Assembly: GCA_003251535.1 (NCBI GenBank)
Contig: QKFD01000100.1
Span: 1-64,000 of the forward strand
Length of the DNA: 64,000 bases
DNA from: Chromatiales bacterium
GTDB taxonomy: Bacteria; Pseudomonadota; Gammaproteobacteria; Thiohalomonadales; Thiohalomonadaceae
Direction of reading: 5' to 3'
In this document: positions 2,077 to 46,290 of the stretch, one piece after another
Position numbering within the stretch: position 1 is the stretch's first letter
Layout of the letters: the number at the start of each line of letters is the position of its first letter
Position numbers and translations under genes: made by a program
Notes under the pieces: generated by a model
What the model saw: the letters and a program-made list of their open reading frames with translations, nothing else
Database searches by the model: none
What the model was told of the DNA's origin: nothing

Positions 2077-3468
<1,392 letters not shown>

Positions 3469-3542
3469 GGGGGGCGGGTGGTAAGTTTGAACGGCCCCGC
3501 AGTATAGCATCTACAACCACGCCTCCTTGGAGAGGCCGAGTT

Positions 3543-4598
3543 ATGATGCCGGCTGTGAAAGCCGCCCGCACCCCATCCGATACCACCTTCTTCGTCCCCG
3601 ATCTCTGCGGGCGATCGGCAGTGCTCACCTTGGTGGTACTGCTTGAGCTGTTTGCCGTTATTTTGGCCCTGGCGGGGACTGGGCTGAGCGAGGCGTTTTG
3701 GGTGCGCTTTGCCGTGGTGTCGCTCTTCATGCAGTGGTCGGGGTTGGTCGGGGCTGGGCTGCTCTGTCTCGGGCGCGGGCAGCTGTTGCGACTGGGAGAC
3801 ATTACCGGTGGTTTGATCGCCTGGGGGATGTTGGTCGCGGTGGTGGCGTTCACCAGTGCCGTCACCGTGCAGTTGGCTCCACTGGTACTGCTTGACCCCC
3901 CGGCAGTGGACTTCATTCCCCGCAACACCACCATCGGGGCCATTGTGGCGGCCTTACTGCTGCGCTACTTCTATGTAGTTCGGCAGTGGCAGCGCCGAGT
4001 GAAGGCGGAGGCGGAGGCGCGTTTGCAGGCGCTCTCTGCCCGTATCCGGCCTCACTTCCTCTTCAATAGTATGAACACCATCGCTGCCCTCACCCGCAGC
4101 AATCCAGAGTTGGCGGAGCGGGTGGTGGAGGACTTGGCCGATCTCTTCCGGGCCAGCCTGGCGGCCGACCGCTCCCTCATCCCCCTCGCCGAAGAGCTTG
4201 CCCTCACCGAGCGCTACCTGGAGATCGAGCAGCTGCGCCTGGGGCCGCGGTTGCGGGTGGTGTGGCAGCTGGAGGAGGGGGTAGGGCAGGTGCAGCTCCC
4301 TCCCCTGACCCTCCAACCGCTGGTGGAGAATGCGGTCTACCACGGCATTGAGCCGCAGACCGATGGCGGGGAGGTGGTGGTAGCGGTGCGTAGTACCCGG
4401 GGTGGGGTGCGGCTGGTGGTAGATAACCCGCTGCCGCCGCCGGCAGTGCCGCGCCGTAGCGGTCACCGCATGGCCCTCGCCAATGTCCGGGATCGCCTGG
4501 AGGCGGCCTTTCCCGAGGTGGGCGAACTGCTGGTGCGGCAGACCTCTGATCGCTTTCATGTGGAGCTGTTTATCCCGACACAGGAGGGGGTGCAATGA
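3543..4598 (+). CDS. algZ: AlgZ/FimS-type (LytS family) membrane sensor histidine kinase
   Basis: 351 residues. Four hydrophobic segments (about residues 26-145) anchor the protein in the inner membrane. The rest is a LytS/YehU-type His_kinase domain: the H-box ARIRPHFLFNSMN has its phosphorylatable histidine at residue 171, followed by the N-box LQPLVENAVYHGIE and a glycine-containing HATPase end. This family lacks the usual HisKA dimerisation module. The start ATG 3543 has GGAGAGG seven bases upstream (3529-3535); an upstream extension to 3459 would cross the argH promoter region. The stop overlaps the next start (ATGA), so kinase and regulator are translationally coupled. In Pseudomonas AlgZ/AlgR controls exopolysaccharide and type IV pili; the target here is unknown. 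Confidence 0.9.
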   Translation: MMPAVKAARTPSDTTFFVPDLCGRSAVLTLVVLLELFAVILALAGTGLSEAFWVRFAVVSLFMQWSGLVGAGLLCLGRGQLLRLGDITGGLIAWGMLVAVVAFTSAVTVQLAPLVLLDPPAVDFIPRNTTIGAIVAALLLRYFYVVRQWQRRVKAEAEARLQALSARIRPHFLFNSMNTIAALTRSNPELAERVVEDLADLFRASLAADRSLIPLAEELALTERYLEIEQLRLGPRLRVVWQLEEGVGQVQLPPLTLQPLVENAVYHGIEPQTDGGEVVVAVRSTRGGVRLVVDNPLPPPAVPRRSGHRMALANVRDRLEAAFPEVGELLVRQTSDRFHVELFIPTQEGVQ

Positions 4599-7188: not shown

Positions 7189-8127
7189 ATGCCTATCGAT
7201 CGAATCCGCATTGCCACCCGCAAGAGCCAACTCGCCCTCTGGCAGGCCGAATATGTCGCCGACCGCCTCCGCGCCGCCCACCCCGGGCTCACGGTGGAGC
7301 TGGTTACCATGACCTCCAAGGGGGATCGCATCCTGGATGCGCCGCTGGCCAAGGTGGGGGGGAAGGGGCTATTCGTGAAGGAGCTGGAGGCCGCTCTGCT
7401 GGAGGGGGAGGCCGATATCGCCGTCCACTCCATGAAGGATGTGCCAGTGGACTCTGAGCTGCCCGAGGGGCTGCACCTGCCGATCATCTGTGAACGGGAG
7501 GATCCGCGTGACGCCTTCGTCAGTAACCAGTTTGCCTCACTGGATCTCCTCCCCGCCGGCGCAGTGGTCGGCACCTCCAGCCTGCGCCGTCAGTGCCAGC
7601 TGCTGGAGTTGCGGCCCGACCTGAAGATTGAATTCCTGCGCGGTAACGTCAACTCCCGTCTCCAGAAGTTGGATGATGGCCAGTATGACGCCATTATCTT
7701 GGCCGCTGCCGGTCTCAAACGGCTGAATTTTGACCATCGTATTCGCACCGCTTTAGGGCCCGAGGTGATGTTGCCGGCCGTGGGGCAGGGGGCGGTGGGG
7801 ATTGAGTGCCGCATCGAAGACCCCGAGGTCAATGCCCTCATCCAACCCCTCGATCACGCCTCAACCCAGCTGCGAGTACGGGCCGAGCGGGCGATGAACG
7901 CTACCCTCCAGGGGGGGTGCCAGGTCCCCATCGCCGGTTATGCCGAGCTGGAGCATGGTGTCATCGTCTTGCGCGGCCTGGTGGGGCAGCCCGATGGTAA
8001 GGCGGTGGTGCGCGGGGTGATAAGTGGCCGCCCGGCAGAGGGAGAGGAGCTGGGGCAGGTGCTGGGCGAGGATCTGCTCGCTCGGGGGGCCCGTGAGATC
8101 CTTGCGCAGGTGTATGGCGACGCCTGA
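7189..8127 (+). CDS. hemC: hydroxymethylbilane synthase (porphobilinogen deaminase)
   Basis: Joins four porphobilinogen units to hydroxymethylbilane in haem synthesis; cytoplasmic. 312 residues. It opens with [18 protein letters not shown], has [24 protein letters not shown] and VHSMKDVP, and carries the cofactor-binding cysteine in [12 protein letters not shown], to which the dipyrromethane is attached. The start ATG 7189 matches the family N-terminus; an extension to 7123 would add residues that family members lack. A -10-like TATGAT lies near 7133 without a convincing -35. The next gene, hemD, overlaps its end by 14 bases. Confidence 0.98.
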
Positions 8128-8938
8128 TCTCCCCCTTGCTGGACTGGGTGTGCTGGTGACCCGGCCCGTCGCCCAGGCCGCTGGGCTTGCGGCGCTGATC
8201 CAGGCGGCGGGGGGGGAGCCGATCCTCTTCCCAGTGCTAGAGATCGCGCCGCCGAGCGATCTCGCCCCGCTCTACGCCCTGATTGATCGCCTGGATGGCT
8301 TTGATATCGCCATCTTTATCAGTCCCAATGCGGTGAGCCGCAGCCTCAACCTGATCCACGCCCGGCGGGGTGGGTTGCCCGCTGGATTGCGACTGGCCAC
8401 CGTTGGCCGCGGGAGTGCGCGGGAGCTGCAGCGGATGGTCGGGCGCCCTCCCGACCTCTGCCCGCAGGAGCGGTTCGAGAGCGAGGCGCTGCTGCAACTG
8501 CCGGAGTTTCAGGCCATCGCTGGGCTGCGGGTGGTGATCTTCCGCGGCGAGGGGGGGCGGGAGCTGCTGGCCGACACCCTGCGCGAGAGGGGGGCGGTGG
8601 TGGAGTATGCCGAGGTCTACCGCCGAGCTGTTCCCAATCTGGATGTTGGTCTCCTGCTACGGCGCTGGTCCCGGGGGGATGTGGGGGTGGTGACCATCAC
8701 CTCCAGCGAGGGGCTGCGCAACCTATTTGATCGAGTGGGGCAACTGGGGCAGGCGTGGCTGCGCTCCACCCCGCTCATTGTGATTAATCCGCGTCAGGCG
8801 GAGTTGGCCCGTGAGTTGGGGATACGCGAGATCGGTATCGCCTCCCAGGCCAGTGACGAGGCGATCCTCGCCGCCATTTGCGCTTGGCGCATCACCCACT
8901 CCCCCGCTCCGCCAGGGCGATCTCTGGAGGGTGGTTGA
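8114..8938 (+). CDS. hemD: uroporphyrinogen-III synthase
   Basis: Closes hydroxymethylbilane to uroporphyrinogen III with inversion of ring D. 274 residues, the usual length. HemD is poorly conserved, but [19 protein letters not shown] at the start, [25 protein letters not shown] and [13 protein letters not shown] are the family's landmarks. The ATG at 8114 lies inside the end of hemC (14-base overlap), which couples the two enzymes of consecutive steps. Confidence 0.95.
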
Positions 8939-35284: not shown

Positions 35285-36178
35285 TCAATGCTTGATCTCT
35301 TTCTCATACTCCTTCGCCACTTGTTCGATGACGCTGATGGCGTCCTGGAGTCGTTCGCCACTCGGCTCGGCTTGTGGCGGCGGGGGCGGTGGGGTGGGCG
35401 CCCGCTCGGCCGCCGGCCGCTCCACCCGATGTTGGTGGCGGGCGATGAAACGTATCGCTACCACCGAGACATTGTCGCTATTGGGATAGGCGCACTGTTC
35501 AGCGGTGGTGGCGAGGTTATCGATGGCCGCCGAGAGGGGCATGGAGTGGCTCAGCAGGGAGCCCATGCGGGCGTCATCCACCGCCTCCCACAGGCCATCC
35601 GAGCAGAGCAGCACCACATCGCCCTCCGCCAAGATGCGGCTGCGACCTAACTCAATGCGGGGGTCCTGGATCTGGCAGCCGATGCACTGGGTGATCTGGT
35701 TGCGCCGCGGGTGGTTGGCCTGCTCCGACAGGGTGATGATCCCCTGCTGATAGAGCTTCTCCACATAGGAGTGATCCCGTGTGCGGAAGATGGTCAGGCC
35801 GTTGCGGAAGACGTAGAGGCGGCTATCGCCCACGTGGGCCCAATTGATCCGCCCCTCCTCAATGATGCAGGCGACGGCGGTGGTGCCGGGGAAGTTCTCG
35901 TAGGTCTCGGCGCGTGCCTGATGGAGGAGTAGGCGGTGGGCCTCTAGGAAGGTCTGCTGGAAGAAGCGACCCGGATCACCCAGGGGGCGGCGCGACCGGC
36001 GGTAGGCCTGGCGCACCATATCCACCAGGGTCTGGGCCGCCATCTCCCCTGCGATGTGGCCCCCCATGCCGTCGGCCAAGACGAGGAGTACCCCTTCAGG
36101 GGTCTCCTCGATGGCGTAGCGATCCTCGTTGATCGTGCGGTTTCCAAGACGATTGGCAAAGCCGATTTCGTAGCGCAT
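35285..36178 (-). CDS. PP2C-type Ser/Thr protein phosphatase
   Basis: 297 residues. PPM/PP2C metal-binding motifs in order: NEDRY, LADGMGGH, HVGDSRLYVF, CSDGLWEAVD and SDNVSVVAIRF. After the catalytic domain comes a Pro-rich linker (PTPPPPPPQ) and a short charged helix. The start ATG overlaps the kinase stop by one base (TGATG), so kinase and phosphatase are co-translated and very likely antagonists on shared substrates. Confidence 0.93.
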   Translation of the reverse strand: MRYEIGFANRLGNRTINEDRYAIEETPEGVLLVLADGMGGHIAGEMAAQTLVDMVRQAYRRSRRPLGDPGRFFQQTFLEAHRLLLHQARAETYENFPGTTAVACIIEEGRINWAHVGDSRLYVFRNGLTIFRTRDHSYVEKLYQQGIITLSEQANHPRRNQITQCIGCQIQDPRIELGRSRILAEGDVVLLCSDGLWEAVDDARMGSLLSHSMPLSAAIDNLATTAEQCAYPNSDNVSVVAIRFIARHQHRVERPAAERAPTPPPPPPQAEPSGERLQDAISVIEQVAKEYEKEIKH

Positions 36179-37134
36179 CACCCTCTACTCCAGGGTAGGC
36201 TGCTGGCGATGCGCCCCAAGACTGAGTCGCTGGGGGGGGCCGGTTCCGGCTCGTCCTCTTTGTTCATCGCCTCTAGCAGCTCGTCCACATTCTGTGGACG
36301 CATGAGCGGATCCACCTCCATCGCCCAATCTATGGCGGCGAGTAAGGCGCGAGAGTAGTTTTTACGGAAGGCGGCCACCGCCGGCTTCATGGGATCTTCG
36401 AGGCGGCGCTCCTCGGCGGCGGGGGGGCTGTTGCCGTCGATGCAGGTGCGCATGGTGGCGCCAATGGCGTAGATATCGGACCATGGACCGACATAGCCCC
36501 CCTGTAGATTCTGCTCCACCGGGGCAAAACCACGGGTGATCACCTGGGCGGTCTGGTATTGGCGGGTCTGGCGCATATGGTGCACCGCGCCAAAGTCGAG
36601 TAGGACCGGATTACCGCCAGAGCGGATGTAGATGTTGCCCGGTTTGATATCGAGGTGCAGCAGCCCCTGCGAGTGGAGCAGCTTGAGGCCGTCGAGCAGG
36701 GGCGGAAAGACGGTGCGAATGAATTTTTCCGACAGGTTGCCGTTGTGGCGCTTGATATAGTCCTGGAGGTTGATGCCCTTCTCATAGGTCATCACCATGT
36801 AGACCGTGCCGTTGGCGCGGAAGAAACTCACCACCTCGACGATATTCGGGTGTTTGATCTTGGCGAGGGTGCTGGCCTCTTGGAGAAAGAGCCGCTGACC
36901 ATGGACGAAGTGATCGGAGGCCTGTTTGTCCCGCGGCCGAATGGTGAGACCATCACTGTCGCGGCAGGCGAGCTTGTGGGGCATGTACTCTTTGATGACC
37001 ACCTGCTGCCCACCGTCCGCCTCGCGCGCGAGGTAGACCAGACTAAAGCCGCCGCCGCCGATCCGCCGCTCGATCAGGTAGTTGTCGACGCGGGTTCCAG
37101 GCTTCAGGCTGTGATGGCTCTCCGTCTCGCTCAT
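36178..37134 (-). CDS. Hanks-type Ser/Thr protein kinase, non-RD type
   Basis: 318 residues. The glycine-rich loop is IGGGGFSLVYLA, the ATP-anchoring lysine K48 in VVIKEYMP, the catalytic loop HLDIKPGN (160-167), and the DFG motif D180-F-G. The usual HRD is HLD, so the arginine that senses activation-loop phosphate is missing. GFAPVEQ in the activation segment and DIYAIGATM complete the fold. The protein lacks a membrane helix. The ~25 C-terminal residues are Pro/Ser-rich. It forms an operon with the phosphatase; pairs of this kind (PpkA/PppA) control type VI secretion in other bacteria, but no such genes are visible here. Confidence 0.92.
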   Translation of the reverse strand: MSETESHHSLKPGTRVDNYLIERRIGGGGFSLVYLAREADGGQQVVIKEYMPHKLACRDSDGLTIRPRDKQASDHFVHGQRLFLQEASTLAKIKHPNIVEVVSFFRANGTVYMVMTYEKGINLQDYIKRHNGNLSEKFIRTVFPPLLDGLKLLHSQGLLHLDIKPGNIYIRSGGNPVLLDFGAVHHMRQTRQYQTAQVITRGFAPVEQNLQGGYVGPWSDIYAIGATMRTCIDGNSPPAAEERRLEDPMKPAVAAFRKNYSRALLAAIDWAMEVDPLMRPQNVDELLEAMNKEDEPEPAPPSDSVLGRIASSLPWSRG

Positions 37135-41425: not shown

Positions 41426-42043
41426 TTAAAGCTGTAGACGCCGACGGCCGAAGTAGCCGGCACTGGCCACCATGCCGGCCATCAGGATCCACATCGCCCA
41501 CTCACTCAACGTGGGGATGACTGTGGCCCCCAGATGGACGGTGGAGTCACAGGTGATGCTATTGGTGAAGGTCCCCTCATCCCCGGCAGCAAAGCCGGTG
41601 GTGACCAGCTGGTAGAGCACGCCGCCTGTCAGGTTGACACTTTCAATATCGGAGGTCCCGATGCCACCCAGGCCATCATCGTCGCCAGCAATAAAGTTTA
41701 CGGTCTGGTTGCTGGGGTCAAAGGGATCGGCATAGACAAATAGGTAGCCATCCCAGCCATCCTGGGTACTGCTGATGGCGCAGGTGGCGTTGTCCGAAAC
41801 CCAAAAGGCCTGGGTCTGGTAGACCACCGGTCCCAGCCCGGAACAACAGGTGCCGTCAGCAAAAGGGCGATCCCAGGAGGAGCCTCCCACCGTCGTACCA
41901 GAGTAGCCCTGGGTGTCGCCCGATATCTCTGGGCCGGAGGGGGATTCCACCGTGCCCTTGGCGGCCAGTTCACTGGCGTCAGTCATGGCGGCGGCGGGGA
42001 GGGCAGAGCATAGAAAACAGAAGAGTATGACCAATCGCTTCAT
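41426..42043 (-). CDS. exported protein with C-terminal IPTL-CTERM sorting signal
   Basis: 205 residues. Signal peptide MKRLVILFCFLCSALPAAA, a ~150-residue extracytoplasmic part with cysteines (DGTCCSGLG, NATCAISS, SITCDS) and an acidic stretch AGDDDGLGGIGTSD, then IPTLSEWAMW, a hydrophobic helix and the basic end GRRRLQL. The last 30 residues match the IPTL-CTERM tripartite signal, believed to direct surface sorting. No sorting protease gene is visible here. The start ATG 42043 has GGAG upstream; longer reading to 42241 would lack a signal peptide. The 128-base gap upstream is strikingly AT-rich, with TTGTTATAAAT-like sequence, so a promoter there is likely. The body's function is unknown; the middle resembles pre-peptidase-type beta domains in spacing only. 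Confidence 0.82.
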   Translation of the reverse strand: MKRLVILFCFLCSALPAAAMTDASELAAKGTVESPSGPEISGDTQGYSGTTVGGSSWDRPFADGTCCSGLGPVVYQTQAFWVSDNATCAISSTQDGWDGYLFVYADPFDPSNQTVNFIAGDDDGLGGIGTSDIESVNLTGGVLYQLVTTGFAAGDEGTFTNSITCDSTVHLGATVIPTLSEWAMWILMAGMVASAGYFGRRRLQL

Positions 42044-42171
42044 AGAGAGGGCTCCAAGGAAAGGGTGTCTGAAGGGTGGTAATAGATAATAAGAGTTTTT
42101 TTGTGCTTCATTTATAACAAAAAACTTGCATGACCCCGCCCCCTTGCTGCTTTGGCGGGCCCATTCGCACG

Positions 42172-42675
42172 CTACATCCGCTCCACCAACCGCCCCGAGG
42201 TCTGCCGCAGGCGGCTGCTCAAGAGGGTGGCAATCTTCCACATGAGCCAGAAGCCCAGGGTGGGGTGCTGGGCTCCGATGCCCAGTAGCGCCTGCTTGGT
42301 CAACGTCAGTAGCTTCACCTCCGTGGCGGCAATGACGCTGGCCGAATGGGGCTGATCATCGATGAGTGACATCTCACCGATGGTCATCCCCGCCTCGATA
42401 GTGGCCAAGTGGCGGCGGCGCTCCCCCTCCGACTCCTTGAACACCTCCAGTTTGCCCTCCACCAAGACGCAGAGGTAGGCATTGCGGCGCCCTTCCCAGA
42501 ATAGTACCGCCCGCGGGGGGGCGCGCCACGCCTGGACAAATTTGGCGAGAAATTCAATCTCCGGCCGTTCGAGTTCGCGGAAGATCTCCGCCTGCGCCAG
42601 CATGGTGCAGACATTTTCATGATAGTCACTGCCGGAGCCCAGCGGCTCCAACCCTTTGAAGCGGGTCTCGTCCAT
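42172..42675 (-). CDS. cyclic-nucleotide-binding domain protein without DNA-binding domain
   Basis: 167 residues. A single cNMP-binding beta-roll: AVLFWEGRRNAYLCVLVEGKLEVFK, then AGMTIGEMSLIDDQPHSASVIAATEVKLLTL, which is the phosphate-binding cassette with GEMS and the S-A-S turn. The arginine usual in R(S/T)A is not clear (HSASV), so ligand binding is uncertain. The C-terminal helix follows, but there is no helix-turn-helix as in CRP, so it is not a transcription factor. Possible role: sensor of cAMP made by the CyaA at the left edge of the window. Confidence 0.85.
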   Translation of the reverse strand: MDETRFKGLEPLGSGSDYHENVCTMLAQAEIFRELERPEIEFLAKFVQAWRAPPRAVLFWEGRRNAYLCVLVEGKLEVFKESEGERRRHLATIEAGMTIGEMSLIDDQPHSASVIAATEVKLLTLTKQALLGIGAQHPTLGFWLMWKIATLLSSRLRQTSGRLVERM

Positions 42676-44871: not shown

Positions 44872-45561
44872 TCAATCCGCAACAGAGGGGGCAGTGGCGT
44901 TGCTGCGGGAGAGGTAGGAGCGGACGGTGAGCTGATTCATCGCCTCATTGGCGGCGGGTTCGAGGCTGAGCAGCACGCTGTAACCCTGCTGATTCCACTC
45001 CCCCTCCACCAACATCAGTTTGCCATCCAGCATACGCATCACCAGCACGCCAAACGGCTCGCCGGGCTCCCCTAAAAGCTGGTGGCCGGAGGCGAGGATG
45101 GTAGCCAGTAGCTGCATCGTTGCCCCCACCTCCGCAATCGCCTCCCCTTGGTGGACATCGGTGTGGCCGATGAAGGCGCTGCCCCCTCGGAAGCCTTTGA
45201 TCTTGGCGAGGCGCTCCAGTAGCTCGGCAAAGAGGGTCTGCTCGTCGTTGCTGGCGCTGCTGCTCTCCACCGCCTCCACTGCTGGGATCGGTTGCACGGG
45301 TGCAGTATCCGCTGCCAAGAGTGTGTCGAGACGGGCGCGGGCGGTGGCGGCGTCGCACTGCTCCGCCAACTGGATGAAGTCCACAATATCGCCCCCGGCA
45401 CCACAGCTATAGCAGTGCCACTCGCCGATGGAGGGGCGTACCACCATCCGTTCTACGGCGTGGCAGCCAGGGCAGTGGCCGAGGAAGTAGTTGCCTGTGC
45501 GGACCAGTGCAGCGTACTGGTCGATGATGGCGACCATCTGGTCGGGTGTAACGGAACTCAT
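44872..45561 (-). CDS. CHC2-like zinc finger fused to a roadblock/LC7-like domain
   Basis: 229 residues. Residues about 28-75 are a DnaG-type CHC2 zinc finger: C30-P-G-C33-H34 and C50-Y-S-C53-GAGGDIVDFIQLAEQCD, close to primase zinc domains but without any primase core. After a linker (about 76-105) comes a ~110-residue domain, LLERLAKIKGFRGGSAFIG...VLVMRMLDGKLMLVEGEW, that resembles the separate roadblock protein encoded 400 bases away (LLDDIKAIKGYRASGIM). The start ATG 45561 is the first methionine before the conserved region. The combination is uncommon; a role in binding nucleic acid under control of a small GTPase or a partner protein is conjecture. Confidence 0.7.
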   Translation of the reverse strand: MSSVTPDQMVAIIDQYAALVRTGNYFLGHCPGCHAVERMVVRPSIGEWHCYSCGAGGDIVDFIQLAEQCDAATARARLDTLLAADTAPVQPIPAVEAVESSSASNDEQTLFAELLERLAKIKGFRGGSAFIGHTDVHQGEAIAEVGATMQLLATILASGHQLLGEPGEPFGVLVMRMLDGKLMLVEGEWNQQGYSVLLSLEPAANEAMNQLTVRSYLSRSNATAPSVAD

Positions 45562-45568
45562 CGAAAAA

Positions 45569-45904
45569 TTACCTTGGGGGCATCGGTTGGCGGCGCACCA
45601 TGTAGACCACGGTGAGTCCCCGGTCCAGCGCCTTGAAGCCAAATCGTTCATAGAACACTACTAGGCGCTGCAACCGCTCTTCACTGCTGTTTCCGCCGAT
45701 GACACGGGCAGAGACATGGACATCTTTGCCATAGTGATCGGCCAGCACCAGCACCCGCTCCACGAGCCGGCTGCCGATGCCTTGGCCTCGATAGGCGGCA
45801 GGGACCATCAGCTGATCGATGGATATGCCCTGCTTGTCCTCGGAGTAGCGCAGCTGCGCCTGGTTACCATCCAGGTGCAGCTGCATCTCGCCGGTCAGAT
45901 TCAT
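45569..45904 (-). CDS. GNAT family N-acetyltransferase
   Basis: 111 residues, a compact GNAT fold. Motif A is MVPAAYRGQGIGSRLVERVL (acetyl-CoA pyrophosphate loop RGQGIG) and motif B is LQRLVVFYERFGFKALDRG. Substrate unknown. It lies seven bases upstream of the zinc-finger gene and 17 bases downstream of the roadblock gene, so the three very probably form one operon. Confidence 0.88.
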   Translation of the reverse strand: MNLTGEMQLHLDGNQAQLRYSEDKQGISIDQLMVPAAYRGQGIGSRLVERVLVLADHYGKDVHVSARVIGGNSSEERLQRLVVFYERFGFKALDRGLTVVYMVRRQPMPPR

Positions 45905-45921
45905 GCCGGCTGGCTAGGCGC

Positions 45922-46290
45922 TTAAGAGAGCTCAGCCACGGCCTTCGGCGCCATCTTCTCCAGGGTCATGCGGGCCAGCGCATGGTTGCCGTCTTTATCG
46001 ATGACGGCGATGAGGTGGAGATGGGCCGCCGAGTCGGCGCCGGAGCAGATCATGACGATGGTGCCGTTGGGGGTCATGACCTGGGTCTCGTTGTTGGAGC
46101 CCATGCCGACCTTGGCGGCGGCCTCGTGGCCGGTGCGGAAGATATCGTTGAAGGTGGCGCCGACGATATCGAGATCGATGTTCTTGTCGATGGAGTGGGA
46201 GGCGAGCATCTCGCCAGTGTGGGTCATGATGCCTGACGCGCGGTAGCCTTTGATGGCTTTGATGTCATCCAAGAGGGTATCGATGGACAT
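45922..46290 (-). CDS. roadblock/LC7 domain protein
   Basis: 122 residues, one roadblock/LC7 domain: LLDDIKAIKGYRASGIMTHTGEMLASHS, central helix, and TPNGTIVMICSG strands. In bacteria such proteins (MglB-like) often regulate small Ras-like GTPases or act in membrane-bound assemblies; no GTPase gene is visible here. It heads the three-gene minus-strand cluster. The upstream gap (46291-46468) is AT-richer than its surroundings and probably holds the promoter. Confidence 0.88.
   Translation of the reverse strand: MSIDTLLDDIKAIKGYRASGIMTHTGEMLASHSIDKNIDLDIVGATFNDIFRTGHEAAAKVGMGSNNETQVMTPNGTIVMICSGADSAAHLHLIAVIDKDGNHALARMTLEKMAPKAVAELS

Follow-up and report, generated by a model that had tools for sequence, protein, structure and literature searches.

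The Gene Cluster and Its Products

The window analyzed here, the whole 64,000-nucleotide stretch of contig QKFD01000100.1 from a Chromatiales bacterium, contains a cluster of three small genes: a free roadblock/LC7 protein (hereafter Robl), a GNAT acetyltransferase and a second roadblock domain fused to a primase-type zinc ribbon. All three open reading frames (ORFs) were found on the minus strand at the coordinates below and, therefore, the Robl gene is the first to be transcribed, followed by those of GNAT and of the zinc-ribbon protein. The acetyltransferase had been described as lying between two roadblock genes with 7- and 17-base gaps, and the coordinates confirm it: 17 bases separate Robl from GNAT and 7 bases separate GNAT from the zinc-ribbon protein (lengths in amino acids, aa).

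45922-46290, minus strand: Robl (P0003), free roadblock/LC7 (MglB-like) protein, 122 aa; from Pfam, AlphaFold2, Foldseek and VIA
45569-45904, minus strand: small GNAT acetyltransferase (P0002), 111 aa; from Pfam, conserved residues and a PDB profile match
44872-45561, minus strand: zinc-ribbon/roadblock fusion (P0001), 229 aa, ATG at 45561; from Pfam, hhalign and Foldseek
45328-45540, minus strand: primase-type zinc ribbon of P0001, aa 8-78; from Zn_ribbon_DnaG, Foldseek and Cys4 ligands
44911-45234, minus strand: diverged C-terminal roadblock domain of P0001, aa 110-217; from hhalign and a low-confidence model

P0003 matches Pfam Robl_LC7 with E 0.002, under the family cut-off, and the same profile is matched at E<=1 by 20 of the 23 Robl family members. 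Its AlphaFold2 model (predicted local distance difference test, pLDDT, 93.7) follows the roadblock order, i.e., helix, two strands, long helix, three strands and helix. The model retrieves MglB in Foldseek (E 2e-9) and, with VIA Z of 15-17.5, roadblock chains of MglB, Asgard roadblocks and Ragulator MP1/p14. By its predicted fold, P0003 is a member of the roadblock/LC7 superfamily. Three Robl residues, H55, H90 and H92, are invariant across phyla and C82 is near-invariant, a possible metal or ligand site.

P0002 is matched by Acetyltransf_CG (1.3e-9) and Acetyltransf_7 (4.9e-9), both over the Pfam cut-off, and has the acetyl-CoA loop R/QxxGxG/A of the GNAT superfamily, whose R39, G42 and G44 are invariant, together with Y85, in 13 GNAT orthologues. 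Its top PDB profile match is NAA50 (5.5e-6), which is in keeping with a role as a dedicated N-terminal acetyltransferase of Robl: an M[AS]LE start would offer an acetylatable Ala or Ser, and the mark would fall on the free, not the fused, Robl. Nearly all Robl proteins do have M[AS]LE-like N-termini, including those that begin at the nested starts described below. However, Robl starts with MSID in the window and with MNLE in Sideroxydans, the start is possibly kept for helix 1, and GNAT profile matches do not define a substrate. We consider such a role distinctly improbable.

Residues 8-78 of P0001 match Pfam Zn_ribbon_DnaG (E 3.6e-11); across the four ribbon-family members, the match ranges from 1.2e-20 to 4.9e-9 and includes the flanking helices. 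In Foldseek, the ribbon finds 1d0q, the DnaG zinc-binding domain (1.2e-4). The original prediction spoke of a primase-type (CHC2) zinc finger without a primase. The family and the missing primase stand, since no TOPRIM/RNA-polymerase domain was found in P0001, whose remainder is linker and roadblock, but the CHC2 ligands do not: the ribbon is Cys4 (C30, C33, C50, C53), with CPxC...CxxC in 4/4 members and cysteine at the position of the His ligand of DnaG. The EK[ST]PSF motif of DnaG is missing from 4/4 as well. Each trio genome also encodes its own DnaG, and CPFH-EK[ST]PSF is present in most DnaGs read from trio genomes and from the window's own order; a Nitrospirota genome also encodes a primase-like protein of 1035 aa with CPFC. 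Because of its Cys4 ligands and the lack of EK[ST]PSF, the ribbon is, from sequence, an offshoot of the primase ribbon family.

Nucleic-acid binding by the ribbon is plausible, and nucleic-acid sensing had been imagined for the cluster. The ribbon could hold the roadblock proteins on single-stranded DNA or RNA, in a process related to replication or transcription, until acetylation releases them. The DnaG family membership and fold match agree with such a sensor, as do matches of the ribbon to viral and plasmid primases and to reverse transcriptase (RT)-associated ribbons, and the trio follows parA-parB in the window. Nevertheless, neither the His ligand nor EK[ST]PSF is present in any of the four ribbons, the parAB neighbourhood is not common to the other trio loci, and the core of the module does without a ribbon in other phyla. 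On balance, we judge a nucleic-acid-bound sensor to be unlikely.

The remaining part of P0001 had been proposed to be roadblock-like and similar to the product of the first transcribed gene, which was borne out. Alignment of the ribbon family (A2) with the Robl family (A1) by hhalign extends over 111 columns (probability 95.7, E 1e-8), the C-terminus of the Thiotrichales zinc-ribbon protein matches the Robl hidden Markov model at 9e-9 and, as judged from such alignments, the P0001 C-terminus is homologous to Robl. The C-terminal model finds roadblock chains in Foldseek with probability ~0.9-1.0 and E ~0.005-0.2. Single-sequence search returned no close P0001 relatives in genome contigs and, in the window's own order, DnaG-like proteins only.

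Distribution and Inheritance

Robl relatives with 47-63% identity were found at 16 loci. Sixteen genomes hold this Robl class; one locus (L016) stops at a contig border and was not counted, and in 13 of the 15 testable genomes, from Pseudomonadota, Nitrospirota, Desulfobacterota and other 'Deltaproteobacteria', a GNAT of the same family adjoins Robl. The expectation that the trio would be conserved elsewhere was confirmed: besides the window, three further, distantly related Pseudomonadota have all of it, namely a Thiotrichales metagenome-assembled genome (MAG; L012), Candidatus Sedimenticola endophacoides (L013) and a Sideroxydans MAG (L019). The order is Robl-GNAT-ribbon in three of the four genomes and Robl-ribbon-GNAT in L019. 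The remaining Robl-class genomes yielded DnaG-like proteins or a weak roadblock-fusion match only, and no ribbon-roadblock protein.

The Robl proteins of the four trio genomes form a single clade (support 95/97), yet the Robl class is nearly absent from the taxonomic groups that surround them (1/369 genomes at class level, 1/120 in the Sideroxydans family and 1/210 in the Sedimenticola order). For this reason, the module looks as if it had spread horizontally. Any Robl match at all was obtained in 6/326 genomes of the Desulfobacterota search and 3/295 of the Nitrospirota search, several of them weak.

A phage, plasmid or defence system was considered and set aside, given that no Robl match occurred in viral contigs or plasmids and that viral matches to family A2 cover mostly the ribbon. 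P0001 had no match in phages, PADLOC gave matches to RT/primase-like ribbons only, and viral GNAT matches are <=40% identical. The gene set is real, rare and modular.

An Exchangeable Second Roadblock and Nested Starts

Some Nitrospirota, Desulfobacterota and other 'Deltaproteobacteria' carry the Robl and GNAT core without the zinc ribbon. At five loci (L014, L017, L018, L022, L025), a second roadblock protein of 141-144 aa is encoded between Robl and GNAT. At six (L020, L022, L024, L025, L026, L060), a receiver-DUF4388 unit or its remnants stand in frame ahead of Robl; Pfam was run on the examples in L024, L026 and L017, and the others were read by similarity. Histidine kinases adjoin L020, L024 and L026, and PilZ-type proteins are found near L015 and L017. 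The kinases upstream of two fusions (L020:3993-5078 and L024:3752-5206) begin with a common Cys-rich stretch (CPI.K.PCP.ECIYS), which may be a metal-binding sensor.

In 11/11 fusions, the Robl domain opens with an in-frame ATG behind a Shine-Dalgarno (SD) sequence of AGGAG type at normal spacing, at the junction of the receiver-DUF4388 and roadblock parts, which no stop codon separates:

Nested starts: L015:4177, L016:2568, L020:6001, L022:6001, L023:5508, L024:6001, L025:5539, L026:6001, L027:4308, L027:6001, L060:1501

Twelve other roadblock domains, i.e., second copies and more distant fusions, do not have such a combination; the first fusion of L027 was listed with those 12 but has a nested start and is counted among the 11. 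As a background, an SD-like motif precedes 30 of 581 internal ATGs (5%) in long ORFs of the same loci. The binomial P is 7e-15, a value that overstates the number of independent events since the fusions are related by descent; the signal spans phyla.

Because SD and ATG are kept throughout, it is reasonable to assume that receiver-DUF4388-roadblock genes probably make both the fused and the free roadblock protein. A chance fusion of receiver-DUF4388 to Robl through a lost stop was rejected as sole cause on the same grounds. With the nested start supplying a free Robl, every version of the module would combine free Robl with GNAT and, in most cases, with a second roadblock that has an N-terminal addition; in Pseudomonadota, this addition is the zinc ribbon.

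A Proposed Roadblock Platform with a Dedicated Acetyltransferase

A conserved core with swapped input domains suggests a protein switch. The interpretation we favour, and to which we give about an even chance, is that of a roadblock-pair platform that has its own GNAT and whose input domain, borne by one subunit, is exchangeable. One subunit would be the free Robl, and the other would carry an N-terminal input or targeting domain, i.e., the DnaG-like Cys4 zinc ribbon in Pseudomonadota and, in other groups, a receiver-DUF4388 (PATAN) unit or a short extension. The two roadblocks probably heterodimerize, by analogy with MP1/p14 and other roadblocks. What the platform binds would be altered by the dedicated GNAT, probably through acetylation of one of the subunits or of a client bound to them, and the zinc ribbon would tether the platform to a nucleic acid or protein partner. 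A client GTPase or ATPase may take part.

This interpretation is built on domain identities, gene linkage, the single clade of trio Robl proteins, the swappable domain of the second roadblock and the nested start signals. Its firmest part is the Robl and GNAT core with a changing partner domain; its least firm parts are the acetylation target and the ribbon ligand.

Several points weigh against the platform. Structure predictions covered monomers only. The P0001 roadblock domain shows the roadblock-like order of helices and strands in a model of low pLDDT, a low confidence due to the alignment having four sequences only. L023 has no GNAT beside Robl and L027 has a GNAT fragment only. The GNATs of the four trio genomes are not grouped in their tree, in which branches are long and support is weak; as a test of co-inheritance, this tree was dropped because of the branch lengths. 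Finally, L020, L024, L026 and L060, where a nested fusion is accompanied by GNAT, have no separate second roadblock gene and, therefore, a pair would depend there on the internal start.

More tentatively, the platform may be a switch that works independently of any GTPase: a heterodimer of free roadblock and sensor-bearing roadblock whose state is set by the dedicated acetyltransferase. The sensor would be the zinc ribbon, or else a phosphorylatable receiver-PATAN unit made along with its free partner from the nested gene. Phosphorylation, or a zinc or nucleic-acid input, would thus be joined to protein acetylation. We hold this possible, though doubtful.

The roadblock modules known from bacteria are interpreted as small-GTPase regulators, while the present one is tied to an acetyltransferase and not to a GTPase, occurs in widely separated bacteria and keeps its core as the input domain changes between lineages. 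It allows one to test whether roadblock proteins can act as stand-alone platforms, and whether a single gene can give both dimer partners by an internal translation start.

Is There a GTPase Partner?

No Ras-like GTPase gene was found in the window cluster. Regulation by a remote GTPase had been raised in the original prediction, and it can be accommodated in this genome, which encodes an MglA-like small GTPase on contig 42 (L078:2383-3039; G000:C42:17882-18535), but it does not extend to two other trio genomes, in which none was detected. The roadblocks would then act as GTPase-activating protein or guanine nucleotide exchange factor for the remote Ras-like GTPase, in the manner of MglA/MglB, with GNAT tuning their interaction and the ribbon localizing it.

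The structural closeness of Robl to MglB agrees with such a system, as does the setting of the window genome's own MglA: the ~2 kb flanking it on each side contain no roadblock gene, and its neighbours include a histidine kinase, response regulators and an HD-GYP-like protein. MglA-like matches were present in all tested Nitrospirota and deltaproteobacterial class-bearing genomes and in the Thiotrichales genome (the survey query was the window genome's own MglA; a PF00025 search mostly gave long GTPases, with open frames of 500-1000 aa). In a published survey, 328/749 MglB homologues were uncoupled to MglA, and orphan MglB-type roadblocks were common and uncharacterised at that time (PMC4316618).

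On the other hand, the Sedimenticola and Sideroxydans trio genomes, MAGs that are possibly incomplete, gave no MglA-like match at E<=1e-3; canonical MglB is mostly beside MglA where MglA occurs in other phyla; and the window genome has two adjoining small roadblock-type genes on contig 128 (G000:C128; L122:2828-3289 and 3348-3752), one with a clear Robl_LC7 match, which could serve its MglA. We find an MglA/MglB-type system rather doubtful. An MglA-family small GTPase is not a general partner of the module, since it went undetected in 2/4 trio genomes, unless these MAGs are incomplete.

Comparison with Known Systems

No system with this gene set was found in the open-access literature (roadblock with DUF4388, acetyltransferase and zinc finger, PATAN), in agreement with the original prediction, which knew of none, and the module is apparently undescribed. 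The Myxococcus xanthus MglA/MglB/MglC(/RomR) polarity module resembles it in the roadblock/LC7 fold, in a paralogous roadblock pair (MglB/MglC) and in having a receiver protein (RomR) in its circuit. Unlike it, the trio cluster has no GTPase gene (with none detected in 2/4 trio genomes), a dedicated GNAT is present, and a zinc ribbon or receiver-DUF4388 is fused to a roadblock. Streptomyces conservons (CvnA-D) are likewise small clusters with a roadblock protein, and histidine kinases lie near some of the Nitrospirota and deltaproteobacterial relatives. However, conservons consist of kinase, roadblock, DUF742-type protein and GTPase, whereas the module has GNAT and a second roadblock, and kinase and GTPase are both missing from the window cluster; DUF742 was not matched by Pfam in the three trio proteins.

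The Ragulator/EGO heterodimers (MP1-p14, LAMTOR2/3) share the fold of Robl (VIA Z up to ~17) and the idea of a roadblock-dimer platform, with kinship examined at fold level; they are eukaryotic scaffolds of Rag GTPases, without GNAT or zinc ribbon. The likeness to the DnaG zinc-binding domain consists in the Zn_ribbon_DnaG family match, flanking helices included, but P0001 has Cys for His, lacks EK[ST]PSF and a TOPRIM domain, and is fused to a roadblock. As for PATAN (DUF4388) response regulators, in Nitrospirota and deltaproteobacteria the second roadblock usually has a receiver-DUF4388 unit at its N-terminus, whereas no description of the roadblock tail and its internal start, or of the adjoining GNAT, was found in the literature searched. 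Several papers discuss PATAN response regulators together with type IV pilus motors, a lead rather than a test.

Neighbouring Genes and Minor Observations

Upstream of the trio, on the same strand, are mnmG, rsmG, parA and parB (names from reading translations), and a chloride-channel-like gene lies beyond it on the opposite strand. No promoter-like match was found ahead of Robl, nor a terminator-like match in the trio region. A partnership with parAB was considered, as the window trio follows parB, and treated as incidental because ParA was not seen at the other trio loci.

Elsewhere, a deltaproteobacterial MAG encodes a ParA/MinD-like ATPase that has a zinc ribbon at its N-terminus (L015:6013-6945) and lies ~800 bases from a roadblock pair. 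Downstream of the roadblock fusions of L027 are genes for two small Cys/Trp-rich proteins (L027:6866-7144 and 7839-8225; KLNCW...KCGRE...). In the window itself, a secreted-looking protein at 41426-42241 (minus strand) ends in an IPTL-CTERM-like sorting tail (IPTLSEWAMWILMAG...RRR), and adjoining PP2C-like phosphatase and Ser/Thr-kinase-like genes were read from translations at 35285-37134 (minus strand).
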